A stretch of DNA of 55,159 bases from Bacteroides sp. Its GTDB lineage: Bacteria; Bacteroidota; Bacteroidia; Bacteroidales; Bacteroidaceae. The notes under the pieces are model-generated. The model worked only from the letters and a program-made list of their open reading frames with translations, ran no database searches and was not told where the DNA came from. The stretch lies in assembly GCA_015060705.1 (NCBI GenBank), contig SUXY01000012.1:1-55159 (forward strand), in the 5' to 3' direction. The first letter of the stretch is position 1. Each line of letters begins with the position of its first letter. Both the position numbers and the translations under genes were made by a program. Shown in pieces: positions 21,752 through 54,780 of this stretch.

Positions 21752-22645
21752 TTAGTCCAACAGTTCCTTGGATGTTTCCCATTTCTTCATTTCATCTTCC
21801 ATCCCAAGAAGAATCATACTCCAACCGCTGAAAATAAACCATAGTGCAATCATAGAAATAATTCCAACAAAAACTCCAGTCATTGGAAAAAGATTAATAA
21901 CGGAAGCTATAACAAGAATAATCATACTAGTTCGCAATTTTCCAGCACCAATACGTCCTTCCATTCCTAAAGACACAGATTGCTTCAATGCACCATATCC
22001 AATATATTCAAATATAAAGGCAACTAGCAATAATATTCCTGCAAGAATTCCACCTAACAAAGGAATCCAACCTAATATAACTGCGACAACTCCCAATATG
22101 ACTGCAGTCTTCAGCTTAGAAACTCCTTTAACACCAGTATCATCCAATACATCTTTTAATATTCCCAATCCTTTGAAATACATGAAGAATCCAACCAATG
22201 CAGCAATACCAGTCAATGTGTTATCTCCGATACTATCATATACATGCATCAAAATTGCAAGCAGTATAAAATAGGCTCCTTGACTTCCCCAACTATTCCA
22301 TTGGATTCCTAAACTATTTTTTGCCATATACAAAGAGACCAATAAGACTATGATTGCTATATATCCCAACCATTGAGGAACTCCTGGTAAGATAACTAAA
22401 AGTGCCAACAAAAGACCTGCCCCAACAATATAGACAAAAGGAGTTGGTAATCCTCCCATACTTTTATGGAATGCCAATAACGCCAAACCAGAACCAACAA
22501 TACCGATAAGTTGACAACAAAGCACAGGAATGTCTAAACTTGATACTCCTATAAAAGAACCTAAATCAGGCAATAAAGCACACACTAACAACAACAAACA
22601 AAATTGAAGTTGCAAGAACTTTTGGTTTTTCATTCTTTCGTCCAT
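21752..22645 (-). CDS. polytopic membrane protein, unknown function
   Basis: About 297 residues with eight or so hydrophobic helices arranged as repeated hydrophobic blocks, for example LGVVAVILGWIPLLGGILAGILLL and LVIASVINLFPMTGVFVGIISMI. I do not recognise a named family. The ATG at 22645 is preferred; an in-frame start at 22762 would overlap the DUF805 gene by 47 bases and add a non-conserved-looking tail. It is the last gene of accessory block 1 and ends at a strong hairpin. Confidence 0.7.
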   Translation of the reverse strand: MDERMKNQKFLQLQFCLLLLVCALLPDLGSFIGVSSLDIPVLCCQLIGIVGSGLALLAFHKSMGGLPTPFVYIVGAGLLLALLVILPGVPQWLGYIAIIVLLVSLYMAKNSLGIQWNSWGSQGAYFILLAILMHVYDSIGDNTLTGIAALVGFFMYFKGLGILKDVLDDTGVKGVSKLKTAVILGVVAVILGWIPLLGGILAGILLLVAFIFEYIGYGALKQSVSLGMEGRIGAGKLRTSMIILVIASVINLFPMTGVFVGIISMIALWFIFSGWSMILLGMEDEMKKWETSKELLD

Positions 22646-22715
22646 AATTATAAAATTTAAAGGAATAAGCGGACATGCAACGATTGTCACAAATCCACTT
22701 ATCCATGTTAAAAAA

Positions 22716-23177
22716 TCAGAAACTATCAATCTGCTTGGTTTCTGTCTTCTGAGTTTCACCATTCATGTTTACTGTCACATTTACAGATGTAGGTTGAGCA
22801 CTATATGGCATACGATTCTTTGGGTCGTTGCCATAACGATTCGGACCTACAGTTCCGTCAGCAAGCAGCATGTAAAGACCCAAAATGAAATTAACAATCG
22901 GAATCAATAACAAGATAACTAACCAACCCGACTTGTCAACATCATGCAAGCGCTTTACATCTTGAGCAATTGTAAACCATATTCCGCCAATTAAAGCAGC
23001 AAAACCTATGAGAACTCCAATACCGAAACCACCTCCAGAGTTCTGGCTAGCACCAATCAAAGATGTACCAACACCTAACCAAAAAGCAATTGCTGTAACT
23101 GCACCACCCAACAAACACGAAAGGAAATATTCGATTCTACGAATACGTCCATTAAAAGAAAAAGGAGATTTAAACAT
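22716..23177 (-). CDS. DUF805 membrane protein
   Basis: A 153-residue inner-membrane protein with the DUF805 pattern: an N-terminal SFNGRIRRIEYFLS segment, about four hydrophobic helices and the VKRLHDVDKSGW motif. The C-terminal tail is polar (NVTVNMNGETQKTETKQ). DUF805 proteins have no known activity, but they occur beside many membrane systems. It is separated by 39 bases from the PEGA gene upstream. Confidence 0.88.
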   Translation of the reverse strand: MFKSPFSFNGRIRRIEYFLSCLLGGAVTAIAFWLGVGTSLIGASQNSGGGFGIGVLIGFAALIGGIWFTIAQDVKRLHDVDKSGWLVILLLIPIVNFILGLYMLLADGTVGPNRYGNDPKNRMPYSAQPTSVNVTVNMNGETQKTETKQIDSF

Positions 23178-23216
23178 AACTTTAAATTTTTAAATTAATA
23201 AACTAGACTTATTTCT

Positions 23217-24275
23217 TTAAAAAGAAAACTCAATCGTTTCCATATTAGGTACAACCCTCACAGTTTTTTCTTTTGTGGAAGCATTATAAGAATCCTCATT
23301 TGCTACAGTTATCAGATGTCGTCCTGTTCGCACTCTAAAAGGTTCTCCATTCTTCCAATCTTTAACTATTTTATTATCAATAAACAGACAAGGTGTATTA
23401 GTGCCATTTACTTTTACAATAATGGAAACAACCGATTTGGGTTGCATCGTAACGGCCAGTTCCTGTCCTTCCATTTTATCAATAATTACTTCTTGCGTAA
23501 AATCCTTCCAATCTTCAGCCTTAACCCGAATCCGATGTTTACCCATTGGAAGGCTTTTCATGCCCGGTTCTCCCTTGTCTGAATTATTGATATACAATTT
23601 GGCCGTAGGAACGTTGCATGTAAAGTTCACATTGGCCATGATTGGTTTCAGCATTAAAGGGATTTCCCGAACTTCTGAAATGTCATCAACCGTTATGGTA
23701 AATGTACCCTCTTTCGTTTGGGAATAATCCGCACTTGCCATATAAGAATAATTACCTGGTTTCAATTCCAATTGTAACATTCCTTCGGAAACTAAATGCT
23801 TTTCACCATTTATCAAAATCGAACCTTCACGAGGAATCATATTAAAGGCCACCGTTTGTGTAGTCTTCGTCACCATACCAACTGTTGAAACATCTACCCG
23901 GTATGTCTTACCTCCTTCTATCAAAGTTTGAAAATCCTTTTTAAAATTAATAGTAGCAGGAAGATAGTCATCATGCCTTAATATAATTCTTCTTAACCCA
24001 TCTGCTACATATACTGTATAATATCCACCTTTATAAATAATCTTTTCTTTATCTATGACAAAGCCACTAGCAAATTGTAATCCAGACAAATCGTTGACAT
24101 AAACTTTTAATAAGGCACAGATTTCACCGTTGGCGTCATAACGAGGATTTGTTTCAGCCTCATTGTCTGTTTCCAACAAGGTTACTTTATCTACTTTCAA
24201 CTCTTGCGCTGAAACAGATATACATGTCAGAAACAGAAAACAAAACCATAAAGAAATAATCCTATTCATAAACAT
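23217..24275 (-). CDS. exported PEGA-domain protein
   Basis: 352 residues with a signal peptide (IISLWFCFLFLTCISVSAQ), an N-terminal domain containing RYDANGEICALLKV and a C-terminal half with PEGA-type beta repeats (NVPTAKLYINNSDKGEPG..LPMGKHRIRVKAEDW). PEGA modules bind surface partners. It is a tandem paralogue of the upstream 449-residue gene but lacks the barrel; the gap is 3 bases, so they are co-transcribed. Its function is unknown; periplasmic or outer-membrane surface location is inferred. Confidence 0.78.
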   Translation of the reverse strand: MFMNRIISLWFCFLFLTCISVSAQELKVDKVTLLETDNEAETNPRYDANGEICALLKVYVNDLSGLQFASGFVIDKEKIIYKGGYYTVYVADGLRRIILRHDDYLPATINFKKDFQTLIEGGKTYRVDVSTVGMVTKTTQTVAFNMIPREGSILINGEKHLVSEGMLQLELKPGNYSYMASADYSQTKEGTFTITVDDISEVREIPLMLKPIMANVNFTCNVPTAKLYINNSDKGEPGMKSLPMGKHRIRVKAEDWKDFTQEVIIDKMEGQELAVTMQPKSVVSIIVKVNGTNTPCLFIDNKIVKDWKNGEPFRVRTGRHLITVANEDSYNASTKEKTVRVVPNMETIEFSF

Positions 24276-24278
24276 CCA

Positions 24279-25628
24279 TTAGAATTTATAACCCAAACTA
24301 ACCATCGGTGCAATAACACCGTCACCTCCAATCACTTTTTTCGAATTCAAATAGTCCACATTGACTCCCAAGATGAAATGATTGAAAGAGAAACGAGCCT
24401 CAACACGTCCACCTAAGAGTAGTCCTTTGTCTTCATCGGAAGAAGAACTGGAACTATTTTCTTCATCATCAAGCAAACTCGCATAACCAATCACTGGACC
24501 TAAACCAACTGAAAAATGATTTCGATTGAACTTACCCAAAGGAGCATTTATACTGAATACTAATGGTATATTAACGGAGAATGGAGTTTTATCATCTATC
24601 TGTATTTCATTACCACACAGAACCATTGCTTCTATACCAAAACGGAAAGTCAACCAACGCTTCATATACATTTCTACATCCAATCCCAATTTTGCAGGGT
24701 AACCTTTCACATTTTCCTTGTTCATCTCAGTTCTTGATTCCAAAGGAAAAGCAAAGCCTCCGCCTAAATAGATACTTGTACGTGGACGTAATTTCTTGCT
24801 TACATCTTCACTTTTCTTCAACGAAGCATTTACTACATTTGATTGCTCTGTCACTGTCACTTCAGACATCCAATCATCATATTTATCAGCCACAAGTCTT
24901 ACATTCCATGTACCAACTGGCAACTCTATTTGTTGGCCATTATCAACAACTCCCCATGATTCATCATCCAGCAAAATTTCTACATTATCAACATTGGCTT
25001 GGAATTTTACCATAGCCATTTTCCGTTCCAAAGTAACATTAATTGGCTCTACGGTTTCGTCTTCCGAAGAAATCATAAAAGCATCTTCAATTGTTTCATA
25101 GCCCGATGCAGAAATGGTATAGTTGTACATCTTATCCACTTCACATTCTATGATACCTACTCCGTCTTCACTCAGTGAAACTATTTGGCCGTTAACGATA
25201 AGGCTCGCATTTACAGGTTCAATCTTGAATACTTTATTTAGTGATTGTTCTTGCGAGAGCACTACCTGATAAACACGTTTCGATGAGATTTCTATGCCCT
25301 CTTTTACAAAATCAACAACGCAAAGAGTATTCACATCATTAGAGATTGTCAAAGATTTAATTCCTGGTGAAACATAAACAATGTATTCGCCGGTACTATG
25401 TTGTACATTCCCCACATGATTACTGAATTCAAGTCCTGTATTCGTAGGAATTTGTATTCTTACAATAGCACAAATTTTCCCATTGGAATCTTTACGTTGA
25501 TACTTACTGGCAGCAAGATCATTTATCAACATCTTTACTTCCTTTATCTTTATTTCCTGACTATGCAATAAAAACATATTTCCTTGTAACATTAAGGTCA
25601 AGAATAATATTTTAAAAAACGTCTTCAT
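24279..25628 (-). CDS. PEGA-domain outer-membrane beta-barrel protein
   Basis: 449 residues: signal peptide, an N-terminal domain with RKDSNGKICAIVRI, a PEGA-like region around residues 205-265 (VDNVEILLDDESWGVVDNG..LPVGTWNVRLVADKY) and a C-terminal outer-membrane barrel that ends in the usual aromatic residue (SLGYKF). A serine/acidic run near the end (ENSSSSSSDED) probably forms a surface loop. It is a paralogue of the next gene downstream. It could anchor the block's products to the outer membrane; that is inference. Confidence 0.8.
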   Translation of the reverse strand: MKTFFKILFLTLMLQGNMFLLHSQEIKIKEVKMLINDLAASKYQRKDSNGKICAIVRIQIPTNTGLEFSNHVGNVQHSTGEYIVYVSPGIKSLTISNDVNTLCVVDFVKEGIEISSKRVYQVVLSQEQSLNKVFKIEPVNASLIVNGQIVSLSEDGVGIIECEVDKMYNYTISASGYETIEDAFMISSEDETVEPINVTLERKMAMVKFQANVDNVEILLDDESWGVVDNGQQIELPVGTWNVRLVADKYDDWMSEVTVTEQSNVVNASLKKSEDVSKKLRPRTSIYLGGGFAFPLESRTEMNKENVKGYPAKLGLDVEMYMKRWLTFRFGIEAMVLCGNEIQIDDKTPFSVNIPLVFSINAPLGKFNRNHFSVGLGPVIGYASLLDDEENSSSSSSDEDKGLLLGGRVEARFSFNHFILGVNVDYLNSKKVIGGDGVIAPMVSLGYKF

Positions 25629-25652: not shown

Positions 25653-26630
25653 TTATAAATCCCATTCTTTTTCAAAACCTTCTTCAAATGGTTCGGGTTG
25701 CCAAGCCCGCAAATGTATCTCTGGTTTTTCTTCATTCGTAAAATCCCATGTTAACCATAAATATCCGTCATCATTATATGTTCCCGATCTATATTTCTGA
25801 TGAAGTGTAACATAATATATCTTTTCATATTCAGGAAGATTACTATTAGGATGAGGAATTAACTTTATGTCCGTAAATTCCACATGAATGAGATTTTTTA
25901 CATCTTGTTCAAAAACTCTTTTTAATCTTTTAAGATATTCTCCTTTAGACTTGACGACATACTCTATATCATCTGGCAATTGAATGCCGTCTGCGGTTTT
26001 ACGTTCAATCACCTTACCTGTAATAATTAATGCATCATCGCTAAATATCGCATCTAAAAAATTAATGTTATGCTCATTGTATGCTGTACGGAAACGCTCT
26101 GTAAAATCAAGAATCATTTCACGACAACGATGGTCTGCGACACTTTTTCCTTCTTTAAGTATTTTTCCATAAAGGTGCATGCTAATTGATAAATGAAATT
26201 CATAAATATTTCCATTTCTATCAAATGTAACTACACCTTCCTGATATTCATCATTTTCTGAAACACCTGAGTTCTTTTGTGCTTTTAATAATAAAGGAAC
26301 ACGACGTATTTGATAGTGTCCATTGCTTTTCTTCAAACATTTCTCACTCACAACATCATCTAGGCAGAGGAACGGTGAATTTTCCCACAACATACTAAGT
26401 GTTGTTTCTACATCAGAAGGTAAACTCAACGATGCGAAATTAATATTTCGACCTTCTTCATGAGCAGCATTCACTTCCGTCAATAAGGTAGAAAGAGACT
26501 GCTCCATCTTTTTCTTTAACTGTTCATTCTTTAGGCCGTCTGTGATGATTACCTCAACAGCCATTACTTGATGAACTGACAATACGCATATCAGTAATAC
26601 TGATAGCATCATCCATATTCTTCTATTCAT
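25653..26630 (-). CDS. exported protein with NTF2/SnoaL-like C-terminal domain
   Basis: 325 residues with a signal peptide (MMLSVLLICVLSVHQVMA). The first half is a weakly conserved alpha/beta region. The second half, around residues 160-310, looks like an NTF2-like fold (FTERFRTAYNEHNINFLDAIFSDDALIITGKVI). No catalytic residues can be assigned. It lies 7 bases after the 286-residue gene and 24 bases before the PEGA-barrel gene, inside a continuous minus-strand operon. Confidence 0.6.
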   Translation of the reverse strand: MNRRIWMMLSVLLICVLSVHQVMAVEVIITDGLKNEQLKKKMEQSLSTLLTEVNAAHEEGRNINFASLSLPSDVETTLSMLWENSPFLCLDDVVSEKCLKKSNGHYQIRRVPLLLKAQKNSGVSENDEYQEGVVTFDRNGNIYEFHLSISMHLYGKILKEGKSVADHRCREMILDFTERFRTAYNEHNINFLDAIFSDDALIITGKVIERKTADGIQLPDDIEYVVKSKGEYLKRLKRVFEQDVKNLIHVEFTDIKLIPHPNSNLPEYEKIYYVTLHQKYRSGTYNDDGYLWLTWDFTNEEKPEIHLRAWQPEPFEEGFEKEWDL

Positions 26631-26637: not shown

Positions 26638-27498
26638 TCATTTTAATGTAAACCAAATGTATGTTCCTGTTTCGTATTTAGTTAGATAGTCCGCCAACTC
26701 TACCTGTTCTTCATTCGCCAAATTGAAAGCGGTTCCATTGGCCACCTTAATATAGCCTCTCACTACATTGTTGTAATCGGCAAAAAAGAAATAAACCACT
26801 CCATTGTCTGGCCAGGCTACTTCCTTTCCATATTCTGCCAATTTATCTGCTTGCTTTAATTTTCCAAGATATTTGCTGACGGATGAAACGGAGTAAACTT
26901 TAAGTATGGATTTTTCTTCTATATTAGATACTCCACCGCTAGCAGATTCCAAAGGAGCAACGATAATCTCTTCCACAGGCTTTTCGACAGGAGGAAGATA
27001 TTCTATAGTCGAAACCAATCCTTCTTCTGATTTCACTTCCACGATGTTTTCTTCTACCGGAGGAGTTGTTATTTCTTCCACTTTCACCGTATCAACAATT
27101 ATGGGAGTATCCGTTACAATAGGATTCGGCAATTCGGCCATTACCGTTTCATCTTCATAATAAGGAAGAATATCTTTCTTCTTTACATAGATAAATGCAC
27201 GGAACAAACTTCCACGTTTGGTTTCTATAACAGCCAAGTTCTCCTTGGATTTTGCAACATAACCAGCAATATCCCCTTCAGCATTTTCCTGTAACCATTG
27301 CTCAATTTCTACATCTATCAGCATCTTTGCGTTTTCGGATGCCTCTTCGGCGCTGACCATTGACGTCCCGGTTACAGTCAAGTAGTCCCGACTTCTTTTA
27401 ATCTTGTTGATTTCTGCATTCTTGTCTTCTTGCGCCAAAGTAGGGATTGCCCAAGTAAACAATACAAGCAGTACGGCAATACGCATCAAATATTTCAT
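26638..27498 (-). CDS. exported protein with proline/threonine-rich linker
   Basis: 286 residues with a signal peptide (MRIAVLLVLFTWAIPTLAQ). An N-terminal alpha/beta domain (SRDYLTVTGTSMVSAEEAS...) is joined to a small C-terminal domain (YSVSSVSKYLGKLKQAD..) by a low-complexity acidic, Pro/Val/Thr-rich linker at about residues 115-195. I do not recognise the family with certainty. The start overlaps the stop of the upstream gene by 4 bases (27495-27498), so the two are translationally coupled. Confidence 0.6.
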   Translation of the reverse strand: MKYLMRIAVLLVLFTWAIPTLAQEDKNAEINKIKRSRDYLTVTGTSMVSAEEASENAKMLIDVEIEQWLQENAEGDIAGYVAKSKENLAVIETKRGSLFRAFIYVKKKDILPYYEDETVMAELPNPIVTDTPIIVDTVKVEEITTPPVEENIVEVKSEEGLVSTIEYLPPVEKPVEEIIVAPLESASGGVSNIEEKSILKVYSVSSVSKYLGKLKQADKLAEYGKEVAWPDNGVVYFFFADYNNVVRGYIKVANGTAFNLANEEQVELADYLTKYETGTYIWFTLK

Positions 27499-28472
27499 TT
27501 CTCAATCTCCTTTCTATCTCTTTCTTGATAATAGGTTTTCACATTGTGAGTAGGTATATAGGCATATAGTCTGGCCTTCAATATGGCATCCCGTTTTTCC
27601 ACAAAGTTCCATGGCAAAATCATGGAAAGCATGTGCTTGAATCCCAAATCGTTGCTTTGTGCCAAAAGTAAAATCATCAATCCGTCTTCTCTCTCTTCCT
27701 CCAAACCGATATAGACAGATGCTCGCATTTCACGACAATAATTCAACCATTGCGACAAACTGATTGTATATTTCAATGTGTCAAACTCATATACACTTTG
27801 CTCGATGTATAGTTGGTATTTATTAATGTCGGTAATCAATCCTTGCATCAGATTCACAGAAGAATACCATTTTCGGTTGGAATCGAATATCGGCTGCAAA
27901 ATCGTACTGTCCGGACGTGAATAATAGGTTGCATCGGAAATAGATTCTATCTCATAAATAGTTACGGGCTGACTTTGGAACACGCTATCAGCAAGCATTT
28001 TGACTTCCATATTTACCAACGAATCGGGAGTGAAAGAAAGAGGCATTGCTTTCAATTGCTTTTCCATGGTCCGTTCCATTTTATTTTTAGGTGCACCCAA
28101 TATCAATTCATAACTGACCGGAAAAACCATATCCAATAGAACGACTCCAGTAGAATCTTTCCATACCGCATTGAACATCTTGTCTTCCATTCTCGTCAGA
28201 GTGAAGTCCGTCTTAGGATTTATCTGATATGCGACCGATGATTCCCCTTTCAGAAAGAGAACCTTGTCTCTCATCATGGAAGGATGCTCTTGGACTCCTT
28301 CACGATGCAAACTATCCAACCGATACAGATAGGTTTCCAAGAAATCGTAAACAGCCAACGAATAGGCAGTTTTCACCTCTTCCGAAAAAAGGTGAAAGCG
28401 TCCTCCTTCTGCCTTTCCCGAAAGGAAAGACAGAAGAAAGAACACTGCCATTATCGTTCTGTTACGGAACAT
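27495..28472 (-). CDS. exported protein of unknown function
   Basis: 325 residues with an N-terminal signal peptide (MAVFFLLSFLSGKAEG). No domain is recognised. The C-terminal part contains YIGLEEEREDGLMILLLAQ and a basic tail. It is 2 bases after the zinc-ribbon/MORN gene and overlaps the next gene by 4 bases, which ties it firmly to the tubulin-like operon. Confidence 0.6.
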   Translation of the reverse strand: MFRNRTIMAVFFLLSFLSGKAEGGRFHLFSEEVKTAYSLAVYDFLETYLYRLDSLHREGVQEHPSMMRDKVLFLKGESSVAYQINPKTDFTLTRMEDKMFNAVWKDSTGVVLLDMVFPVSYELILGAPKNKMERTMEKQLKAMPLSFTPDSLVNMEVKMLADSVFQSQPVTIYEIESISDATYYSRPDSTILQPIFDSNRKWYSSVNLMQGLITDINKYQLYIEQSVYEFDTLKYTISLSQWLNYCREMRASVYIGLEEEREDGLMILLLAQSNDLGFKHMLSMILPWNFVEKRDAILKARLYAYIPTHNVKTYYQERDRKEIEK

Positions 28473-28474: not shown

Positions 28475-29302
28475 TTATTTATCCTCATCACTTGGAGCAA
28501 CTCCAAAATTCAAAGCTTGGATTAGTTTTCCATTGGCATCGAAATGTTTGCCAATGGTTATCTCTCCATTTACGAATTGACCTTGGATGTATTCACCTGG
28601 TTTGGCCTTGCGTCTTTGTATATCATGACTGTTGATGATATGCTCTTGAGTAAATTCTAAACGACCGATGCCATGGGCTTTACCATTTTTTCGTTCTCCT
28701 TCATATTTACCATAAGAAGGCCATGAAGGTGGTGTAGTACTACCTTTCACTACTACCTGAATATCATCTGTTTTTTTATAAACATTGGTAGTGACAGTTA
28801 CATTGGCTTTCCCTGGAGCCACAGCCATTAAATCACCATTGCCAGAAACTGTAACCACACTTTCGTTGTTGCTTGTCCATATTACACCGTCATTAGCGTT
28901 ACTCGGGTCGCAATCAAGACTCAGATGTTTACTTTCTCCTTGTTTAAGGGTTATTTTGTCACCTTCCATTATGGAAATCCATATGGCAGGAATTTTTTCA
29001 GGGTCCTCTGTATCTTCTCCACCCCCAAATAGACCTTTTGTATAAGCATAATATCCACCACCCCCCAAAAGAGCAACGGCAGCTACAATACTTATAATTA
29101 ATATCCAAGGCGTTGGAGAAGTTGTAGTAGTTGTTATGCTTCCACCTGGTTTAGGAGTTGTCGGAGTATTACTTTGATTTACTTCCACCAATGGCTTTCC
29201 ACATATTTCACAAACAAAGTTAGCCTTATCTGCTTCTTGTATTTCCTTAGATAGCGCCTTGGGACATTTTTTCATTATATTGACACATTTTCCTGTTGCC
29301 AT
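28475..29302 (-). CDS. zinc-ribbon / single-TM / Ig-like / MORN-like protein
   Basis: 275 residues with a modular order: a cytoplasmic zinc-ribbon-like segment with four cysteines (C6, C13, C31, C34), a Thr/Pro-rich linker, one transmembrane helix at about 67-88 (WILIISIVAAVALLGGGGYYAY), a bacterial Ig-like (BIG2) domain at about 110-190 (SLDCDPSNANDGVIWTSNNESVVTV) and a MORN-like stretch (YGKYEGERKNGKAHGIGRLEF). It would connect a cytoplasmic zinc module to periplasmic binding modules. It follows the tubulin-like gene by 4 bases, so it is a plausible membrane adaptor for that GTPase. Confidence 0.72.
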   Translation of the reverse strand: MATGKCVNIMKKCPKALSKEIQEADKANFVCEICGKPLVEVNQSNTPTTPKPGGSITTTTTSPTPWILIISIVAAVALLGGGGYYAYTKGLFGGGEDTEDPEKIPAIWISIMEGDKITLKQGESKHLSLDCDPSNANDGVIWTSNNESVVTVSGNGDLMAVAPGKANVTVTTNVYKKTDDIQVVVKGSTTPPSWPSYGKYEGERKNGKAHGIGRLEFTQEHIINSHDIQRRKAKPGEYIQGQFVNGEITIGKHFDANGKLIQALNFGVAPSDEDK

Positions 29303-32530: not shown

Positions 32531-33364
32531 TTAAAACTTGGACGGAGTATGACGTCCACTCATACGAGAATGTGTTCGCACTCCACTATGTCCGCTTCCA
32601 TTCCGTTTGTATTTTACTTCTTTATAAGAATGAAGCGTTTTTATTACAATAAAAGCAGCAATTATAATGTAAAGAAAGCTCCAACCAATAGCATACCATA
32701 CAAATTTATTCAATTCATCATCTACCGCTGAAGCTATATCAGAAGCAACATTGGCCGCATTGCCACCTTCTACATAAGCATATTCAATCAATTGATTAAC
32801 TAAAGGGAACTCATTCGAAGCCATTTCAAACAGGCGTATTGACTCTTGTTTGGAAATTGGCATGGCTGTATTCTTCGCATATTCAGATACAAAGCTATCA
32901 ATATGATGTTCATAATCATCTATCATCCATTTCAAACTGATAGCACCACACATCGGAACCATTTCAATAGCCAACAAAATCACCAATACTACTCCGGTCA
33001 ATATGCTTAATGGAGAAAATGTCGATTTTGGATAAAAACCTCTAATTAAAAAGAAAAGCAGAAATACACCTAGAACAGTAATCAAACAACCAACCACCAA
33101 ACTACCAGAAGCATATTTTATAATGTCAGACAAAAGCGATATGTTCATCAATGTTGCCATCACTCCATGTTTTTCAAGTATCTTGCGTTCCCCGAACAAG
33201 ACAGATAAAACAAAACCACAAGTAACGGCATAAAAAAAGCGCGGGAACTGATCATTTGCCTGTCCCGCACATCTTGGCCTTCGCATTGCCATAAGCAGTA
33301 GAACAAGCAATGCAGAGCCCACGCCGATATGAATATAACATACCCTTATACGACCATAGAACAA
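32531..33364 (-). CDS. membrane protein upstream of the tubulin-like gene
   Basis: 277 residues with about four transmembrane helices: near residues 10-26, in SGSLVVGCLITVLGVFLLFFL, in LTGVVLVILLAIEMV and in AIGWSFLYIIIAAFIVI, plus an exposed helical region (about 150-225) and a basic Ser/Arg-rich tail. The start is uncertain: the open frame begins with TTG at 33364, which keeps the first helix. The first ATG is at 33292 (MAMRRPRCAG) and would remove it. It is the first coding gene after the putative RNA leader and precedes the tubulin-like gene by 32 bases. No family recognised. Confidence 0.65.
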   Translation of the reverse strand: MFYGRIRVCYIHIGVGSALLVLLLMAMRRPRCAGQANDQFPRFFYAVTCGFVLSVLFGERKILEKHGVMATLMNISLLSDIIKYASGSLVVGCLITVLGVFLLFFLIRGFYPKSTFSPLSILTGVVLVILLAIEMVPMCGAISLKWMIDDYEHHIDSFVSEYAKNTAMPISKQESIRLFEMASNEFPLVNQLIEYAYVEGGNAANVASDIASAVDDELNKFVWYAIGWSFLYIIIAAFIVIKTLHSYKEVKYKRNGSGHSGVRTHSRMSGRHTPSKF

Positions 33365-47590: not shown

Positions 47591-48757
47591 CTATTTTACC
47601 AGTTGACCTTTTCCGTTAATAATGATACCTTGTGGCTGGCAGAGATACAAGTCTTCCGCAATAGCTTCAATAGAAGAGTATTCAGGCGGAGTTATTCGTT
47701 TCCCATCTCTGTCTATCAAACCATAATATTCATTATAATACCCACTGCGCACCATATATTTTTGACATTTAGCCACATCGTATATGACTGAAATTGATGA
47801 ATATTCACCCTCGTTTTCATCATTATCCAGTTCAGTCGTTGCATAATGCATATTTTCTACATTGTCAATTACGAAATCAACCAAAATATTGCCATCAAAG
47901 TCATAACGCTTGGCCGTATGGTCAGGGAAACGGACTTCTATAACGTCATCACAAATGTCTATCTGTGGATTTTCCACATCGTACATCAGCTCCATATTTT
48001 CCGAATACAATCCATATACATCTTCTTTCTTGACTTTCCAGAATTGGTATTCATGAACGATGACATCATATTCAGGTTTCAACACCCAGTTGCCTTGACG
48101 GTCTATCAAGGCAGACTTGCCATCCACGGCGTTTTTCACCACGCAATAGCCGTCATGGAAAGCATATTGTGGATCATCAAAATGAACTTCAAAATCCTTG
48201 TCTATGACAACATCACCAGAATGGTTTATGAATACGAGTTCATTATCCTTTTCTACAGCAGCTAGACCTTCAGAGAACACCCATGCTCTCGTATAGATGG
48301 CAGGAAGTATCACTTCACCTGTAAATCTATTCAAATAACCTCTTTTCCCATTTTTTGCGAATACAGCAAGACTATCCTTATCATCAGACACAACAACCCA
48401 ATCCACCTCTTCAACAACCACCTTTTTCAAATTTTCATCATATACACGTCCTTTATCCTGGTAATACAATTCCTGAAAGTCAATATGATTACTCAGGTGT
48501 TTATTACTATAAACGATTTCAACTGTATGGGGACGTATCCATTCACGGTACACTACTTCGTACATAAAAGCGTAGACAAAAATGACAGTACCAATCAAAA
48601 ACAAAACCGTAAAGCAAGAAACAAATATTCGCCAGATAACCTTACCGAATGTCATATCCTCTTTATAACCAAAAAATTTGGCTATTTTCTGTAAAAACAG
48701 ACAGATTCCCTCGAAAAGGACTGTCAACCATAATTTAAATGAGATTTTCTTATTCAT
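47591..48757 (-). CDS. WG-repeat membrane protein
   Basis: About 388 residues. A short cytoplasmic start is followed by one transmembrane helix near 45-70 (VSCFTVLFLIGTVIFVYAFMY), then an extracytoplasmic series of WG-type beta repeats (AKNGKRGYLNRFTGEVILPAIYTR; SALIDRQGNWVLKPEYDVI; YYGLIDRDGKRITPPEYSSI). WG repeats are protein-binding modules. The ATG at 48757 is preferred to 48772. It is translated just before the pseudo-transpeptidase, which also has a WG-like segment, so the two may interact. Confidence 0.75.
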   Translation of the reverse strand: MNKKISFKLWLTVLFEGICLFLQKIAKFFGYKEDMTFGKVIWRIFVSCFTVLFLIGTVIFVYAFMYEVVYREWIRPHTVEIVYSNKHLSNHIDFQELYYQDKGRVYDENLKKVVVEEVDWVVVSDDKDSLAVFAKNGKRGYLNRFTGEVILPAIYTRAWVFSEGLAAVEKDNELVFINHSGDVVIDKDFEVHFDDPQYAFHDGYCVVKNAVDGKSALIDRQGNWVLKPEYDVIVHEYQFWKVKKEDVYGLYSENMELMYDVENPQIDICDDVIEVRFPDHTAKRYDFDGNILVDFVIDNVENMHYATTELDNDENEGEYSSISVIYDVAKCQKYMVRSGYYNEYYGLIDRDGKRITPPEYSSIEAIAEDLYLCQPQGIIINGKGQLVK

Positions 48758-48818
48758 AATACTAATTTTCAATATTTGTTATATTTTTCAATCGTTCCAT
48801 TAAAAGACATGGTTCATT

Positions 48819-49232
48819 TTAATACTTAATTATATAGCAATTACCATTGAAACTAAACCGACTTTTACCCTGTATGCAAATCCATGTGCTATTGAAGCAT
48901 ATATATTTTACCCCATGACTAAGATATATTAAGTAAGAACCTTTACAATGTCCCGATTCAGTGTATATTGTTACTGTAGAAGAAGTACGGGAATATGTAC
49001 CATCATTTTGCATACTTTGAAAAGTCACATTGTTATATTCTGGATTTGGAACCGTTACTACCACAGCCCCATTACCTCCACAAATTGGGCAATAGATTGG
49101 ACCATAATAAGATGCTATCACTCCATATCCTTGGCATTGTGGACATACCTGTTTAACGTTTACATATTGTTGTGCACAAATATTCAAAATACCTGCATAA
49201 ACCAATGTTACTATACATATAAGCTTCTTCAT
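48819..49232 (-). CDS. small exported protein with DnaJ-type zinc motif
   Basis: 137 residues with a signal peptide (ICIVTLVYAGILNICA). Two CxxCxGxG-like motifs follow (CPQCQGYG and CPICGGNG), the pair that forms half of the DnaJ zinc domain. The rest is a small Ser/Thr-rich beta region. An exported thiol-rich zinc motif is unusual. No function known. It lies between the WG gene and the RyR-domain gene, beyond a terminator. Confidence 0.6.
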   Translation of the reverse strand: MKKLICIVTLVYAGILNICAQQYVNVKQVCPQCQGYGVIASYYGPIYCPICGGNGAVVVTVPNPEYNNVTFQSMQNDGTYSRTSSTVTIYTESGHCKGSYLIYLSHGVKYICFNSTWICIQGKSRFSFNGNCYIIKY

Positions 49233-49382: not shown

Positions 49383-49673
49383 TTACTCTCTGGATATTTT
49401 GAATCCTAATTTGCTTATCAGCTTCAAGGTTCCCAGAGCCGTATCTCGATCATAAGCTTTTTCAACTTCCGGCAATTCTTCATAAGGGATCAAGCAAGGA
49501 TGCTGTTTTAATGCATCACTTCGTTCTTTACCATAAGTCCAACCTTGTTCCATACGGCTTTTCGCCCAAACTTCATGAACATTCTTAGCCATTTGTTCAA
49601 TCAAAACATTCAACTCTTCTGGCAACTGGATATCATTTGTATCCATTGGTTGCGGTACATAATTCTTTTCCAT
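49383..49673 (-). CDS. RyR-domain small protein
   Basis: A 96-residue protein that is essentially one RyR domain (the ryanodine-receptor repeat fold): YVPQPMDTNDIQLPEEL, MAKNVHEVWAKSRMEQGWTYG, HPCLIPYEELPEVEKAYDRDTA. The family is found in bacteria, phages and animal calcium channels. In bacteria it has been linked by genome context to nucleotide-signalling and immune systems. Here it follows the TIR-like membrane protein gene by 109 bases and ends at a strong terminator. Confidence 0.85.
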   Translation of the reverse strand: MEKNYVPQPMDTNDIQLPEELNVLIEQMAKNVHEVWAKSRMEQGWTYGKERSDALKQHPCLIPYEELPEVEKAYDRDTALGTLKLISKLGFKISRE

Positions 49674-49782: not shown

Positions 49783-50901
49783 TCATTGTTTGTAATTTAC
49801 ATAAATGTAGTTAGAATACAAGTAGTCTCCTAATTGTGATTTTGCTCGTACTCTCATACGAAACCTGCAATCCTTATCAGATGAAATACAGAAAAAATAT
49901 CTGTCATCCGTCTCGCCATAGGCGACATTCTGACGAAATTTTTTGAGATTATACTCATTTTTGTTTTTATCAACTTTTATCATGTCTACACCTAAAACAT
50001 TTTCCATTGGGACAAAAGACGATTTCCTCCTCGTCGTATCTGCCACATAATTGTCTACTTCTAATTTACCTTCAACAAATACAATAGTATTCCTGTGCTT
50101 ATTATACAATTTTAATCGGAAGAATGGAGGTGGGGTAGTAATGAGAGTATCTGCATTTATGATTGGAAAAACTGAAATATCAGTTCCTGCCATTATGGAA
50201 TCTTCATATTTGAACACTGATAAAAGGCTGTCTGTAAATATATCTTTTCCTGTCAAAGCATTCACATCCTTATATCTCATCAAATATAGCTGAGCAGTAC
50301 AGCTGTCAATAATAGATTCTTCTTGATGATAACATGTTTTGAACATAGAGATAATTCCACCACATAATAGTAATGATAAAAGTAATGATACTCCAAAACG
50401 GAGGCTCCGACGTCTATCAATAGTTCTTGTTGCAGATTCCAAATCTGCTTTAATTTTAGTAGACAAATCTCTATTGTCAAAGAAATGCTGGAAATATATC
50501 CCCTCTTGATTAAGATACTCTAAAATTTCATCACCCTCATTAATATTCTTGCCATAGATAAAAACAATTGGATGACGAGAATTCTTGGTAGATGCAACAG
50601 CAACATCTATTTCGTGTTTTGTGATATTGCCGATTTCCCCATCAATAATAAATAATGCAATCTGTGCTTCGCGTACGATATATGTATTATAAATATCTTG
50701 ATGCTTTCCAGGGACAACGTTTCTCGTCAGATCCGTAAAATCCTTAGCCACATAAAAGTGTTTGACATATTCGCGGGAATTGAGTTGGCTTACCAAGGGG
50801 TCAATAACGTCATTACGATATCCTTTTAGGAATTCATTTTCTCCATGCAAAAGTTTTACACCACCACCTAGAAATATTTGAATAGTCCTCATACTTACCA
50901 T
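49783..50901 (-). CDS. single-pass protein with TIR/deoxyribosyltransferase-like N-terminal domain
   Basis: 372 residues. The N-terminal 125 residues look like the TIR/nucleoside-deoxyribosyltransferase fold: TIQIFLGGG at the start, a middle helix with AQIALFIIDGEIG, and a conserved Glu E97 in TKHEIDVAVAS where such enzymes carry their catalytic acid. One transmembrane helix follows at about 168-187 (FGVSLLLSLLLCGGIISMF), then an extracytoplasmic beta-rich domain (190-372). The first ATG is 2 bases after the upstream stop; the ATG at 50892 is also possible. NAD or nucleotide cleavage is only a guess. Confidence 0.6.
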   Translation of the reverse strand: MVSMRTIQIFLGGGVKLLHGENEFLKGYRNDVIDPLVSQLNSREYVKHFYVAKDFTDLTRNVVPGKHQDIYNTYIVREAQIALFIIDGEIGNITKHEIDVAVASTKNSRHPIVFIYGKNINEGDEILEYLNQEGIYFQHFFDNRDLSTKIKADLESATRTIDRRRSLRFGVSLLLSLLLCGGIISMFKTCYHQEESIIDSCTAQLYLMRYKDVNALTGKDIFTDSLLSVFKYEDSIMAGTDISVFPIINADTLITTPPPFFRLKLYNKHRNTIVFVEGKLEVDNYVADTTRRKSSFVPMENVLGVDMIKVDKNKNEYNLKKFRQNVAYGETDDRYFFCISSDKDCRFRMRVRAKSQLGDYLYSNYIYVNYKQ

Positions 50902-50903
50902 AC

Positions 50904-52118
50904 TTAGTTTTTGGGGTAATAATGGTGAAAATGGACATCTTTGCTTCTAATCTTCATCTCATTATCGTTATTAATGTCAACATGGAACTTATGTAACGAA
51001 GACCTGTCTGCTTTTAAGGAGAGTCTTATCATTTCTGCACCATAAGGTTCTATAACTGTAGTATATGGAAAGCGAAGCGTGTAATTTTCGCCAGATGATT
51101 TGAGCTTTACGTCGAATTTGTCATTCTCGTATGATAAAGCGCCAAAACCACCTGAAGTTGATAGACTTATTTCTGCTATAAAGTCCACCTTAAAATCGCT
51201 ATCATCAAATTTTATAGACCCATAAAGAGTCGCTGAGCCAACATATTCATCAAAATTGCCCTTTTTTAGTCCAAATGGCTCAAATTTGTTTTGAAAGTAA
51301 CCCAAATGTTTATCATCTTCTGTAATGTATAATTCTACACATTTGCTTGACGCATCATCTGTATCCTCATCATCAGTACTATGTGGATGAAAAGTTTTAA
51401 TACTCTCAATTAGGCCATCATAATCATATCCCATTGATATCATATCTGGGAGTAAATCTATGATAGTATAAGAGCCAAAATATGGTACATGTCGCTTCTT
51501 TTTGTATTGTCCATCAAAGGACTCTCCACTTTTCAAAAGTGAATATGAAAATGTAAAGCCCTTCCAATCAAACCAACTTTCATTAACAAAATAAATACTA
51601 TTGCTTACTTCTTCAGTAGTGCATATATATATTAATGGTGTTGTATCAGGTTTGCTTTCATCAACTTTTATTTTAAGTTCTTTGATACTTAATCGCTCAT
51701 TGGTATTATTGACAACATCTAAATTCATGGTAAGATGCTCAACATTTTCACTATTTTCAAATACGGCGATTTTATCTGCCATAAAGCGGGTTCCTGACAT
51801 GTAATGTTTGTAATAGCGAGAATTTATATCAATATAGATATCTTTATCCGTTTCGTGTGTTACTTCATATTCTGCATCAACTAACTGTCTCATGTCCTCA
51901 TCTTCCGTATGAATCAAATTGATTGCTATTGGTATATCAATAGATTCTTCTGCTATTTCATCCAAGCCATCTGTTCCATTTAAATGTGCCTCCATTTGAT
52001 TATCATCGCTTGAGATATTCTTTTTATAAGAACTTCCACACGAAACGGAAACCATAGATATCACAACAAGACACAACAAGAGCACCATTCCTGATGTAAT
52101 AAAATATGACAATTTCAT
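50904..52118 (-). CDS. lipoprotein-like protein of unknown function
   Basis: 404 residues with a signal region (GMVLLLCLVVISMVSVSC) ending in a Cys27 that could be lipidated, though the lipobox is imperfect. The mature part is acidic and beta-rich (NLIHTEDEDMRQL, FPYTTVIEPYGAEMIRLSLKADRS). I recognise no family. It lies 32 bases after the TIR/FGE gene and directly before the TIR-like gene, so it is part of the same transcript. Confidence 0.6.
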   Translation of the reverse strand: MKLSYFITSGMVLLLCLVVISMVSVSCGSSYKKNISSDDNQMEAHLNGTDGLDEIAEESIDIPIAINLIHTEDEDMRQLVDAEYEVTHETDKDIYIDINSRYYKHYMSGTRFMADKIAVFENSENVEHLTMNLDVVNNTNERLSIKELKIKVDESKPDTTPLIYICTTEEVSNSIYFVNESWFDWKGFTFSYSLLKSGESFDGQYKKKRHVPYFGSYTIIDLLPDMISMGYDYDGLIESIKTFHPHSTDDEDTDDASSKCVELYITEDDKHLGYFQNKFEPFGLKKGNFDEYVGSATLYGSIKFDDSDFKVDFIAEISLSTSGGFGALSYENDKFDVKLKSSGENYTLRFPYTTVIEPYGAEMIRLSLKADRSSLHKFHVDINNDNEMKIRSKDVHFHHYYPKN

Positions 52119-52150: not shown

Positions 52151-53299
52151 TTATTCAACATTATATCTAATAACCACTCTCAATCCCAATCCACTCGTTT
52201 TCTTGGAATGGTCTGAGGCATATCGTCGTGACACACGACAGTTCTTGGCTTCGTGCCACCAACTGCCACCGCGACGGATGAATACATTTCCGCCTGGTAT
52301 TACTTCATTTTCATAGGGATGCGCAGGAGTGGCTGTCCATTCCCACACGTTTCCACACATATCATAGAGCCCTAACTCGTTAGGTTTCTTTTCTCCTACA
52401 GGATGAGTAGTACGACCTGAATTATTGTGATACCAAGCAACTTCATCAATATCATTACTACCTGCATATAGATAGTGACCACTCTTTTGACCACCTCTGG
52501 CCGCATACTCCCACTCCTCTTCAGTTGGCAGCGCAAAAGGGATATTCGTCATTTTCGATAGACGGCGTACAAAATCAACGGCTTCATCATGTGTAAGATG
52601 TTCTGCAGGATGGTTGCCATAATACACGCCCTTATGTTTGAAATGAGATTTATTGTATCCCATTACTCGTTCCCAAACGCATTGCGTTATAAGGTATTTT
52701 GAGATGTAAAAAGTAGGCAGCTTCACATTAAAAGACGGATGTTCGATAGCCTCTGCAAATGGTATTTGTTCTGATGTGGCACCAAGTTCTAAAGAACCGC
52801 CCTCAACCCTTATCATTTCTAATTGAAGATTGCCAATCTCTACACAGACAAGTTCACCTGATATTTCGGGAAAAGAAGTTGTTCCCACTTCATTATATGA
52901 AAAGATAGATTTCAAGTCTGGTATAAGGCCTGTAGAAATAGGATGCCTGCTCATGTATCGTTGATTGATGTCTGACAGCATGAGTTTGTGAACTTCCGAT
53001 AATTCGCAATCATCGATGAAATATGGATAGATAAATCGGGCTTCCTTACATCCAATTGCATAACTGAGTTCCTTCGGAGTTACTTTTGCTTTAACGGTAT
53101 TCTTGCTTCCCAAATAAAGGAATACCTTACAATTCTTGATACCTTTTACCAGCACATCCCAAAAGTCAGGATTCTCGATTGATATATTGTCAAAGAAACA
53201 TGAGATTCCTGCATCAGTAAGAGCCTTATAAATGCTTTCTGCAACAACATAGTCAATGTGACTATAACTTATAAATATGTCGTAATCGTAGTCCATCAT
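52151..53299 (-). CDS. TIR domain fused to formylglycine-generating-enzyme-like domain
   Basis: 382 residues. Residues 5-130 are a TIR domain (YDIFISYSHIDY, CFFDNISI, KVFLYLGSKNT, with E77 in TPKELSYAIG as the candidate NADase Glu). Residues 155-380 are an FGE-sulfatase/C-type-lectin-like domain (MIRVEGGSLELG, PTEEEWEYAARGG, LYDMCGNVWEWT, RRGGSWW, NCRVSRRYASDHS). Only one Cys is present where true FGE uses two, so oxidase activity is unlikely and a binding role is more plausible. TIR domains in bacteria often cleave NAD in defence. The gene starts 11 bases after the TIR/GTPase gene. Confidence 0.85.
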   Translation of the reverse strand: MMDYDYDIFISYSHIDYVVAESIYKALTDAGISCFFDNISIENPDFWDVLVKGIKNCKVFLYLGSKNTVKAKVTPKELSYAIGCKEARFIYPYFIDDCELSEVHKLMLSDINQRYMSRHPISTGLIPDLKSIFSYNEVGTTSFPEISGELVCVEIGNLQLEMIRVEGGSLELGATSEQIPFAEAIEHPSFNVKLPTFYISKYLITQCVWERVMGYNKSHFKHKGVYYGNHPAEHLTHDEAVDFVRRLSKMTNIPFALPTEEEWEYAARGGQKSGHYLYAGSNDIDEVAWYHNNSGRTTHPVGEKKPNELGLYDMCGNVWEWTATPAHPYENEVIPGGNVFIRRGGSWWHEAKNCRVSRRYASDHSKKTSGLGLRVVIRYNVE

Positions 53300-53310
53300 T
53301 TAATTTATTG

Positions 53311-54780
53311 TTATTTATTCAACTCTTTCCATAATAAGTGTGGAAATTTTGGTGATGAAGGAACATATATCATTCTGCCGCTGTGAGATTGAGAGTACGT
53401 ACCCGTAGAGAATGGAATAACAGAACAATTATATTTCCTAAAGAATTTTGTTATAGGATTGAAATTTTCAAAAATCTCTAATATCCCGGGATACTCTTCC
53501 TTTATCAGATTTAAGAGAGGGTTAAAGGACACCTCGCTTTTTCCATGAAAGAATGGAAGTTTATCGGTTTTGTTGCAAACAAGAATAACCTTATCTCCTG
53601 GTCTAAAAAATTGTAATTTGAACTTTTGTATTTTTTCTATGTTTTTTATTCGATGAAACGAATCTCTCCAATAAGGCTCAAGCATGATGACCCAAATGAA
53701 TGGATTACTAGAATGGATTATCTGTAATAAAAAATGAGGGAGTGGTGTTGAGTCTGACTCATCATAATAGAATTTCCCAGCAACATCTACTATTTGAAAT
53801 ACACATCTCCCTATTCTGTCTATAATTTTAATTAACATACAATCCATTCGACTAGTTCCATTTGCTGCGTACGCACTATTTATCAGCTCATGAAAGCTAT
53901 CGCATAACTTACCATAACCGATATCACTAGTGGGACGGAAATCTCGATCAGGTTGCACAGAATATCCTTGTTCTAATAGATAGCGAACAAGCCTAACCAA
54001 TGTCATAGTCTTTCCAACTGCCGCTGGTCCTATCAACATCACAATAGGTGTTTTCTTATCAGTTATGTGTACCGAGATTTCATCAGAAAAACTGCCACAA
54101 TCTGACATATCCTGAGTTTTAGTCGATTTTAAGTATGTTTTAGTGAGCGTTTTACCTTTATTCAGCTTATCACCTTCATAAGTCATTATGTGCTCAACTT
54201 TTTTATCGCCAAGGTCCATAATAACAGTCGCTCCCTTCACGCTTTGTGGAATTTCAAAAAATCTTCTATTTGCCCCGCTATGCTTAGGAATATGGTGACG
54301 AATGGCTCGTAGTAACTTCGGAATAGCTTTCTCTTGATTAATACAGTCTATGCGATCCAGAGACACGATCTTCATCATAACCGAATCATTATATGGCGAT
54401 TCATCTAGTCTGAAAGGTATAATAATCTTCTTATACTCCAACGCCGTAGATATTTCGTTGCTCGTCCACAATGACTGGTTGGAATTAACAGAAGATAAAA
54501 ATAAAAATATTTTAGATGTGCGAATGGCACGTGTAATCACACCCGCAAATTCATCTCCCGAGTATATACCCTCTTCATCAAACCAATATGATATATCGTT
54601 TTCTTCTAATGCGTTTTTTATTTTTGATATAATGCAGTTTTCAATTGGTCTGTCATTAATCACATAATCTTTTCTAGAGTAACTAATAAAGACATCCGTT
54701 GATAACAGAGCATTACATTTCTCGCAATTCTCTCTATCTGCCACATTTGGCCAACCGCAGTTTTTACATCTATTTGCCAT
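53311..54780 (-). CDS. zinc ribbon - TIR - P-loop GTPase fusion
   Basis: 489 residues. An N-terminal zinc ribbon (C5, C8, C19, C22) is followed by a TIR domain at about 28-165 (DVFISYSRKDY, FLFLSSVNS, E109 in WTSNEIS). The C-terminal half is a GTPase: G1 GPAAVGKT (251-258), G3 DVAG (332-335) and G4 NKTD (403-406). No signal peptide; it is cytoplasmic. The architecture suggests that nucleotide binding controls TIR oligomerisation or NAD cleavage. It follows the remnant of an IS-interrupted gene after 14 bases and heads the operon as it now stands. Confidence 0.85.
   Translation of the reverse strand: MANRCKNCGWPNVADRENCEKCNALLSTDVFISYSRKDYVINDRPIENCIISKIKNALEENDISYWFDEEGIYSGDEFAGVITRAIRTSKIFLFLSSVNSNQSLWTSNEISTALEYKKIIIPFRLDESPYNDSVMMKIVSLDRIDCINQEKAIPKLLRAIRHHIPKHSGANRRFFEIPQSVKGATVIMDLGDKKVEHIMTYEGDKLNKGKTLTKTYLKSTKTQDMSDCGSFSDEISVHITDKKTPIVMLIGPAAVGKTMTLVRLVRYLLEQGYSVQPDRDFRPTSDIGYGKLCDSFHELINSAYAANGTSRMDCMLIKIIDRIGRCVFQIVDVAGKFYYDESDSTPLPHFLLQIIHSSNPFIWVIMLEPYWRDSFHRIKNIEKIQKFKLQFFRPGDKVILVCNKTDKLPFFHGKSEVSFNPLLNLIKEEYPGILEIFENFNPITKFFRKYNCSVIPFSTGTYSQSHSGRMIYVPSSPKFPHLLWKELNK

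Follow-up and report, generated by a model that had tools for sequence, protein, structure and literature searches.

A mobile Tubulin_2 gene cassette and a TIR-containing gene island on one Bacteroides contig

Introduction

Tubulin-like GTPases of the FtsZl1 family have been placed, in the part of the article available to us, in putative membrane-remodelling systems whose other members are VWA proteins, a P-loop GTPase, OmpA-like partners and a kinase, and the legend of Figure 1 in that article names Bacteroides caccae among its species (Makarova and Koonin, 2010, PMC2875224). A second group of systems with a tubulin theme, the GAP1-N2/DO-GTPase conflict systems, comes only from Firmicutes and Actinobacteria as far as the accessible part of its description goes (Kaur et al. 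2020, PMC7159879). From yet another direction, RyDEP is a phage counter-defence protein that destroys cyclic ADP-ribose signals of the 2'/3' cADPR type by means of the catalytic dyad H75/D117, with W78 and H100 as ligand residues (PMC13232231, a 2026 preprint, in the portion available). Here we analyse a stretch of Bacteroides sp. DNA, referred to as the window, which is an entire contig of 55,159 bases (SUXY01000012.1, or C46) and which carries two gene blocks that touch on all three subjects: block 1 encodes a tubulin-like GTPase, and block 2 encodes TIR proteins and an RyR-domain protein. An earlier note on this DNA had proposed that the two blocks form one envelope system. In the open-licence literature, our search returned no description of the Bacteroidales operon reported here, which Additional files 5 and 6 of PMC2875224 may nevertheless list, and no description of the domain order of block 2, whose component domains are known.

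Results

The distribution and gene order of the tubulin operon were established by searching for its tubulin gene in 60 genomes of relatives, 301 genomes of the same family and 295 genomes of the same order, each set including the window's own genome, and in plasmids. At E<=0.001, the family set yields a match in 38 of 301 genomes; in 31 of these, our own among them, the match is long and strong. The gene is thus present in 30 of the 300 other genomes, a patchy distribution among relatives. Seven weak matches (G035, G103, G130, G178, G182, G251 and G252, where G denotes a genome and L, below, a locus) were held outside the strong set; G258, a strong match with fragmentary contigs, was left out of the count of gene order; and L241, which corresponds to the coiled-coil part only, was not counted as a tubulin. 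We then scored 40 loci in which the tubulin match is long, including one from Paraburkholderia, with profiles made from the window and 28 loci, these 28 training loci being among the 40. A gene for a zinc-ribbon/transmembrane (TM) protein lies directly 3′ of the tubulin gene in every locus with room for it (37 of 37, Paraburkholderia included), genes 4 to 6 follow in 36 of 37, the exception being Paraburkholderia, and the upstream membrane gene (gene 1) is found in 32 of 38. Among relatives belonging to the window's order, the four genes 3′ of tubulin keep the same order in 36 of 36 loci with room, and doubled tubulin or NTF2 genes are the only departures from it. By these comparisons of gene order, block 1 has been shown to contain a six-gene core made up of a membrane protein, a Tubulin_2 GTPase, a zinc-ribbon/TM adaptor and three more conserved proteins. 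The operon is variable 3′ of gene 6, where a 526-residue family occurs in 18 of 27 loci and a 255-residue family in 17 of 27, some loci being cut by contig ends; L033, L146, L152, L161 and L162 carry PEGA, FGE or barrel genes in this place, as the window does.

The central protein of the core was described in the earlier note as a 1063-residue tubulin-like GTPase, and this description is borne out. The open reading frame matches Tubulin_2 (PF13809) with E=1.5e-48, its glycine-loop residues are invariant in nine of nine sequences compared, and its predicted structure gives structural matches to tubulin and CetZ; on profile and model, the N-terminal domain is a tubulin-superfamily GTPase domain. 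Long helices are predicted at residues 519-566 and 578-645, and the C-terminal part also has strands (823-881 and 952-980), so that the FtsZl1 trait of an extended coiled coil with a mostly helical C-terminal part is present, with "mostly helical" holding in part. Because several structural alignments span residue 1 to about 918, a range that gives only the first and last aligned residues, we tentatively place the coiled coil as an insertion in the second tubulin domain of the model, in which residues 880-929 have a pLDDT below 50. The one named relative obtained by a scan of genome contigs with a single-sequence query is on an "uncultured Bacteroides" contig at 59% identity.

Several lines of evidence show at the sequence level that the block 1 cassette has been transferred between genera. 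Operons from three genera are 84-89% identical in nucleotide sequence over 9-13 kb (figures for the operon alone), and the longest match between genera stops near the operon ends in the 20-kb stretches compared. The tubulin tree agrees poorly with genus: when genus and family labels were mapped on it, 28 changes were needed over 18 groups, whereas with shuffled labels the mean was 29.0 and 64 of 200 shuffles reached a value as low. Nearest to the window in this tree are rows of its own genus. The order sample contains 4 full-length tubulin matches among 294 other genomes. The OmpA and amidase genes that flank block 1 are direct neighbours in G006 and G009, and in G011 and G002 a single gene separates them; a tubulin operon is present in G006 too, on a different contig. 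In G010, where the flanking proteins are 90-99% identical to those of the window, other genes lie 3′ of the amidase gene, so this position could be a hot spot for insertions. In this near relative, the genes after the amidase gene (L181, 14962-20000, and L182) encode an amylase domain, weak 8xMP and sigma-like matches and a WG protein. Plasmid or phage origin of the cassette was considered and rejected: phages gave no match, plasmids gave one distant match on a Paraburkholderia chromid, and viral contigs gave no confirmed relative.

The proposal that the blocks are a single system was examined by co-occurrence in the 300 family genomes other than our own, using one-sided Fisher tests; many of these genomes are incomplete, and relatedness is not corrected for. 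The tubulin gene (30 genomes) and the block 2 GTPase (23 genomes) occur together in four genomes against 2.3 expected (p=0.19), in all four on different contigs. Adding the seven weak tubulin matches gives 5 against 2.8 (p=0.14), and tubulin with the wider WG set gives 6 against 4.4 (p=0.26). In the 40 tubulin loci, the block 2 queries, RyR among them, matched three FGE domains only (L152, L161 and L247). On present sequence comparisons, the claim that blocks 1 and 2 are one system is not supported.

The general outline of the window given in the earlier note, two AT-rich minus-strand blocks around ordinary genes, agrees with our measurements (features in Table 1). Block 1 spans 21752-33364 with a GC content of 0.372, and block 2 spans 42469-54780 with 0.359; GC content is 0.445 to the left of block 1 (0.437-0.450 in 11.6-kb windows) and 0.408 in the 9 kb between the blocks, which hold amidase, carboxylase, glycine transporter, DUF3078, YidC and DUF1846 genes. 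The assembly comprises 118 contigs and is 88% complete, and since the window is an entire contig, the right end of block 2 falls outside the data. An OmpA gene at 20958-21677 was considered as a member of block 1 and rejected; it is a flanking chromosomal gene on the opposite strand, placed outside the block because relatives that lack block 1 at this site have it next to the amidase gene. Upstream of the block 1 operon is a 534-bp gap (33365-33898) containing a terminator-like stem and a match to TTTG-N19-TATGTTTG, which we take to be the Bacteroides-type promoter motif and which occurs 8 times in the window against 2.27 expected. A sigma-70 promoter scan of 33100-33950 gave no excess, and an Rfam scan of the window at gathering thresholds gave 0 matches.

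Table 1. Candidate promoter and protein-coding genes of blocks 1 and 2 in the window
Positions	Strand	Block	Feature	Evidence
33668..33698	-	1	Candidate Bacteroides-type promoter, TTTG-N19-TATGTTTG	Pattern match upstream of operon
32531..33364	-	1	Gene 1: inner-membrane protein, basic C-terminal tail	Homologue 5′ of tubulin in 32/38 loci with room
29307..32498	-	1	Gene 2: Tubulin_2/FtsZl1 GTPase, 1063 residues	T1- and T4-like glycine loops, long helical insertion
28475..29302	-	1	Gene 3: zinc ribbon, one TM, Big_2/MORN-like outer part	After tubulin in 37/37 loci with room
27495..28472	-	1	Gene 4: conserved, fold not assigned	36/37 loci with room; no Pfam match
26638..27498	-	1	Gene 5: conserved, signal-peptide-like hydrophobic N-terminus	36/37 loci with room
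25653..26630	-	1	Gene 6: NTF2-like, signal-peptide-like N-terminus	36/37 loci with room; Cds6_C E=6.9e-5, below curated cut-off
24279..25628	-	1	Accessory: PEGA and weak beta-barrel	PEGA E=2.3e-5; OMP_b-brl E=0.0071, below cut-off
23217..24275	-	1	Accessory: PEGA protein	PEGA E=6.3e-7; homologue in L033, L162
22716..23177	-	1	Accessory: DUF805 membrane protein	E=6.5e-25; close homologue 3′ of operon in L158, 172 bits
21752..22762	-	1	Accessory: multi-TM protein	About 10 TM-like stretches; no Pfam match at E<=0.1
53311..54780	-	2	Zinc ribbon, TIR and GTPase fusion	TIR_2 E=4.9e-17; GTPase motifs and model
52151..53299	-	2	TIR and FGE-sulfatase (C-type-lectin-fold)	TIR_2 E=3e-13; FGE E=6.3e-40
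50904..52118	-	2	Protein with hydrophobic N-terminus	No Pfam match; one weak PADLOC match, DrmMII E=0.00084
49783..50901	-	2	TIR-like domain, one TM, outer domain	TM-like 166-191; TIR-likeness by eye; no Pfam match
49383..49673	-	2	RyR (R12) domain protein, 96 residues	PF02026 E=4e-36
48819..49232	-	2	Small protein, hydrophobic N-terminus, CxxCxGxG-like cysteines	Anti-TRAP E=8e-5, DnaJ_CXXCXGXG E=0.0064, both below cut-off
47591..48772	-	2	TM and WG-repeat protein	WG E=9.9e-22; full-length relatives up to 83% identity
45557..47584	-	2	TM, WG motif, dead penicillin-binding transpeptidase domain	Transpeptidase E=8.5e-8; WG E=0.001, below cut-off
44386..45495	-	2	Multi-TM protein	8 TM-like stretches; no relatives in fetched loci
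43389..44354	-	2	Protein	C-terminal part recurs in L222, 125 bits
42469..43329	-	2	Sel1-like lipoprotein-type protein, accompanies WG protein	Own Pfam match chance-level, E=0.089

Within the core, gene 1 probably starts at an internal ATG near 33160, because its relatives are only 151-213 residues long, and its last 40 residues are net positive in 24 of 24 members compared, the window's included. The earlier note's zinc-ribbon/TM/Ig/MORN adaptor (gene 3) stands in its Ig-like and membrane parts, with a Pfam Big_2 match of E=2.7e-14 and a TM-like stretch at residues 60-86 in a hydropathy scan; its MORN match lies below the cut-off (E=0.019). Similarly, two of the accessory proteins do contain PEGA domains as claimed, the barrel assignment being below cut-off, and the homologue of the protein at 24279-25628 occupies the same place in L033 and L162. 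The N-terminus of gene 4 was not flagged by the hydropathy scan; export of its product is perhaps possible, as a guess. Neither a nuclease nor an NADase turned up when block 1 and ten genes from the neighbourhoods of relatives were scanned with Pfam.

Some relatives of the tubulin gene have unusual arrangements. A second tubulin gene directly 5′ of the intact one is present in L157 (4979-7303) and L248 (6086-8410), and the extra copy in L157 is without glycine loops and resembles a pseudo-subunit; in L153 (15239-16924), an additional short Tubulin_2 protein with a GYF_2 domain at its end is encoded 3′ of the operon. On plasmid unnamed1, a chromid, of Paraburkholderia sp. PREW-6R (L225, 5081-14429), Tubulin_2 is paired with a zinc-ribbon/TM/TPR protein, and the pair adjoins caspase-domain, CsgG, DUF4384 and weak Gly-zipper genes; this neighbourhood is a hint of a conflict function.

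The TIR, RyR, WG-repeat and dead penicillin-binding protein (PBP) parts attributed to block 2 in the earlier note were all recovered, the RyR domain as a small separate gene. The GTPase part of the fusion protein has the motifs GPAAVGKT and NKTD, and its AlphaFold model (pLDDT 81.0, pTM 0.79) matches P-loop GTPases. DO-GTPases are TRAFAC-like, with a conserved glutamate in Walker B; the motif QxLExxGE, found in 19 of 21 relatives of the GTPase part, reads QIVDVAGK in the window, and there is no Pfam match to a DO-GTPase at E<=0.1. For the TM protein at 49783-50901 the TM-like stretch was found, its likeness to TIR having no Pfam profile behind it, and weak relatives of it occur in 3 of 300 other family genomes. 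Aligned to active PBPs, the product of 45557-47584 is missing all of SxxK, SxN and KTG (L139, a wrong-frame open reading frame, was disregarded). The Sel1 hint for 42469-43329 comes from its homologue in L083 (E=0.014). The fetched loci contain no relatives of 48819-49232 and 0 of 50904-52118, and plasmid searches with 53311-54780 and 50904-52118 gave no match.

Relatives of the GTPase part, 24-44% identical, are found in 23 of 300 other family genomes in open frames of at most 361 residues, which are too short to include a TIR fusion. Neighbourhoods taken for 20 of the 23 genomes define an operon in which the GTPase is accompanied by a TM protein (20 of 20), a coiled-coil/TM protein (18 of 20), an aspartyl-protease-like protein (14 of 20) and a second coiled-coil/TM protein (18 of 20). 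In L083 (8528-13891), as also in L069-L088, the stand-alone GTPase with a QILEAPGE-type motif sits in such a five-gene operon, whose GTPase and coiled-coil proteins have no specific Pfam name and which is possibly an undescribed GTPase system. The GTPase-operon loci L074 (1149-4397) and L080 (11865-12884) contain FGE and DUF805 domains, as in blocks 2 and 1, and accessory domains seem to be common to the tubulin and GTPase modules. A GTPase match at 31% identity lies on viral contig L236, in which a core-gene scan found nothing.

Other parts of block 2 recur in partial combinations. L211 (10806-16349) holds, in one run, double-TIR, Macro-TIR, PrsW protease, RyR, 42469-homologue and WG genes, and its combination of Macro, TIR and RyR domains suggests ADP-ribose signalling. 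A WG protein 83% identical to ours and a 42469 homologue adjoin VWA and ADP-ribosylglycohydrolase genes in L083, about 2 kb from the GTPase operon, and a 42469 homologue is near a WG protein in six loci (L083, L210, L211, L213, L215 and L223). Both the GTPase and a full-length WG gene are present in 5 genomes, where 1.6 would be expected (p=0.015, uncorrected). From L211, L083 and this co-occurrence, the links among the parts of block 2 appear to be somewhat closer than their links with block 1. In L216 (2151-6152), the block 2 domains appear in another shuffle: one protein joins a 42469-like (Sel1-like) part to a PBP-like domain in which SxxK and KTG are missing, and it lies next to a TM-WG protein. 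Among stand-alone PBP-like proteins (L126-L130), the serine and lysine of SxxK are both lost in four of five, and L129 retains the serine with the lysine lost.

The RyR protein of the window is 90% identical to that of L211 and matches the solved "putative ryanodine receptor" chain 3nrt (E=7.2e-38). Its residues H33, W36, H58 and D75 have a spacing identical to that of H75, W78, H100 and D117 in RyDEP, and the same four residues are present in the L211 and L204 copies. The position of its gene between TIR and envelope genes, together with the likeness to RyDEP, suggests that the protein acts on the island's own signal, as its eraser, sink or receptor.

Discussion

The near-chance co-occurrence of the two blocks, and the lack of shared loci beyond three FGE domains, lead us to read them as independent. 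We give about an even chance to an account in which they are two independently acquired accessory modules, an envelope-spanning tubulin cassette and a TIR/ADP-ribose-type island. For the first module, we envisage that the tubulin-like protein would bind GTP and, on the cytoplasmic side of the inner membrane, assemble or switch, and that the zinc ribbon of gene 3 and the basic tail of gene 1, both presumably facing the cytoplasm, could dock it there; the outer part of the adaptor might then relay the state of assembly to the exported proteins and to the variable parts in the outer envelope. The scattered occurrence of the cassette and its horizontal spread suggest a role in conflict or in the response to envelope stress, and not a housekeeping one. 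In block 2, two TIR proteins, one regulated by its GTPase and the other by FGE-based recognition, may make an ADP-ribose-based signal from NAD+ that the RyR protein would bind or destroy, with the WG, Sel1-like and dead-PBP envelope proteins as the putative sensor or target side. The boldest form of the proposal, which we consider unlikely, is that these are two new conflict systems: a trans-envelope cytoskeletal defence or stress machine composed of tubulin, adaptor and interchangeable periplasmic and outer-membrane parts, and a TIR island with its own RyR eraser, sink or receptor, perhaps of the kind that was the bacterial source of phage RyDEP.

A number of our own observations weigh against parts of this reading, and we consider them here with the alternatives they bear on. 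It is very improbable, in our judgement, that the tubulin operon and the TIR/GTPase island make up one envelope system in which the TIR-GTPase stands in for the "distinct GTPase" of FtsZl1: the tubulin and GTPase genes co-occur near chance and never on one contig, the 40 tubulin loci match block 2 in nothing beyond three FGE domains, and ordinary genes separate the blocks. What speaks for it is that the blocks, separated by 9 kb, are alike in being AT-rich minus-strand islands with zinc ribbons, that FGE domains occur in block 2 and 3′ of some tubulin operons, and that DUF805 proteins like that of block 1 are found in two GTPase loci (L074 and L080). In addition, tubulin and full-length WG genes occur together in 6 genomes against 2.1 expected (p=0.011, with a cut set post hoc and uncorrected for relatedness or multiple tests), G191 and G258 each have a tubulin gene on one contig and a WG/42469-type locus on another, and a distant WG protein (35% identity) is encoded on contig C33 of G308, about 17-25 kb from two tubulin genes. 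Replacement of the FtsZl1 GTPase by that of block 2 was also taken up as a candidate by itself and rejected, there being no relative in the 40 tubulin loci and no co-distribution. A stronger competitor, which we think somewhat less than evenly probable, sees in block 1 an envelope or secretion machine, specific to a niche and serving membrane remodelling, that has spread because it aids colonisation and not defence. Many block 1 genes look envelope-directed, our scans revealed no nuclease or NADase, PADLOC found no match among the six of ten block 1 proteins scanned, and horizontal spread also fits surface or adhesion functions; restriction to about 10% of family genomes, movement between genera and cassette-like ends count on the other side, and are compatible with this alternative too. 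The evidence for movement has its own counterweights, in that the window's genus taken alone is partly clustered in the tubulin tree (7 changes, where shuffling gave 9.9 on average and reached so low a value in 12 of 500 cases), the tree has several long branches and the genus label of L033 was assigned by hand. Likewise, the tubulin model is only moderate (pTM 0.49, best Foldseek E=0.01), and our literature search found no experiment on a Tubulin_2/FtsZl1 protein. Finally, block 1 could be a reduced tubulin-theme conflict system of the GAP1-N2/DO-GTPase type that has lost its DO-GTPase and GAP1, an idea we regard as quite improbable. Tubulin, zinc ribbons, PEGA, NTF2 and FGE are themes common to both in the available part of PMC7159879, and a caspase-domain gene lies alongside the Paraburkholderia relative; against this, a search for DO-GTPase2 (PF19993), which was positive for the control C. 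glutamicum and did not extend to DO-GTPase1, detected it in one of 28 genomes with a tubulin gene, where the two lie on different contigs.

Doubts about block 2 concern its coherence and chemistry. GTPase and WG/Sel1-like modules are often apart, so that the block may be a patchwork, and in the extreme case its genes would be unrelated accessory genes that chance has gathered at a variable site and that share no function. The GTPase relatives reside in a five-gene operon without TIR, WG and 42469-like genes accompany VWA and ADP-ribosylglycohydrolase, and 44386, 48819 and 50904 have no relative in the fetched loci. We nonetheless find such a chance collection rather unlikely, as L211 holds TIR, RyR, 42469-like and WG genes together and the WG protein and 42469 homologue are close in six loci. 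With respect to the proposed eraser, six of eight RyDEP homologues tested bound cyclic ADP-ribose signals and the tested homologues did not cleave them, according to the part of PMC13232231 at hand; conserved residues are for this reason no proof of cleavage, and sink or receptor roles deserve equal mention.

Under the two-module reading, each block offers a tractable object. A membrane machine run by Tubulin_2/FtsZl1 proteins has been a prediction since 2010, and the six-gene core is a compact, movable unit of this type. The pairing of tubulin with a zinc-ribbon adaptor in both Bacteroidota and Betaproteobacteria makes the adaptor the most likely direct partner. In block 2, an RyR gene within a TIR island opens the host side of the 2026 RyDEP discovery to testing.

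Comparison with known systems places the two blocks in different company. Block 2 resembles Thoeris and other TIR defences in its TIR domains and weak PADLOC ThsB matches, and differs in that no ThsA effector was recognised (PADLOC gave no ThsA match in 10 of 11 block 2 proteins, 44386 lying outside the scan) and in that TIR is fused to a GTPase or FGE domain. The likeness of its RyR protein to RyDEP lies in membership of the PF02026 family and in four residues at the same spacing; RyDEP acts in phage counter-defence, whereas the present gene belongs to a bacterial island beside TIR genes. With the systems of Kaur et al., as far as described in the part available to us, block 1 shares tubulin, a zinc ribbon, PEGA/NTF2/FGE themes and mobile neighbourhoods; it differs in that 27 of the 28 genomes searched that carry the tubulin gave no DO-GTPase2. 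A general Pfam scan of block 1 proteins gave no GAP1 match, the presence of GAP1 models in that library being unconfirmed. The closest kinship is with the FtsZl1 family of Makarova and Koonin, to which the tubulin-like gene belongs, as the earlier note had it, in an operon rich in envelope-directed genes. In comparison with the accessible part of that description, the tubulin family, the GTPase domain with a long coiled coil and the many membrane or exported operon proteins are held in common. VWA was matched in neither the ten block 1 proteins nor ten scanned neighbouring genes of relatives, P-loop GTPases are absent from the block 1 proteins, no kinase was found in the operon, and the only OmpA-like gene nearby is the opposite-strand flank. 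In their stead block 1 has the constant zinc-ribbon/TM adaptor and three conserved genes, and by its sequence and gene content it is a variant of the FtsZl1/Tubulin_2 systems.

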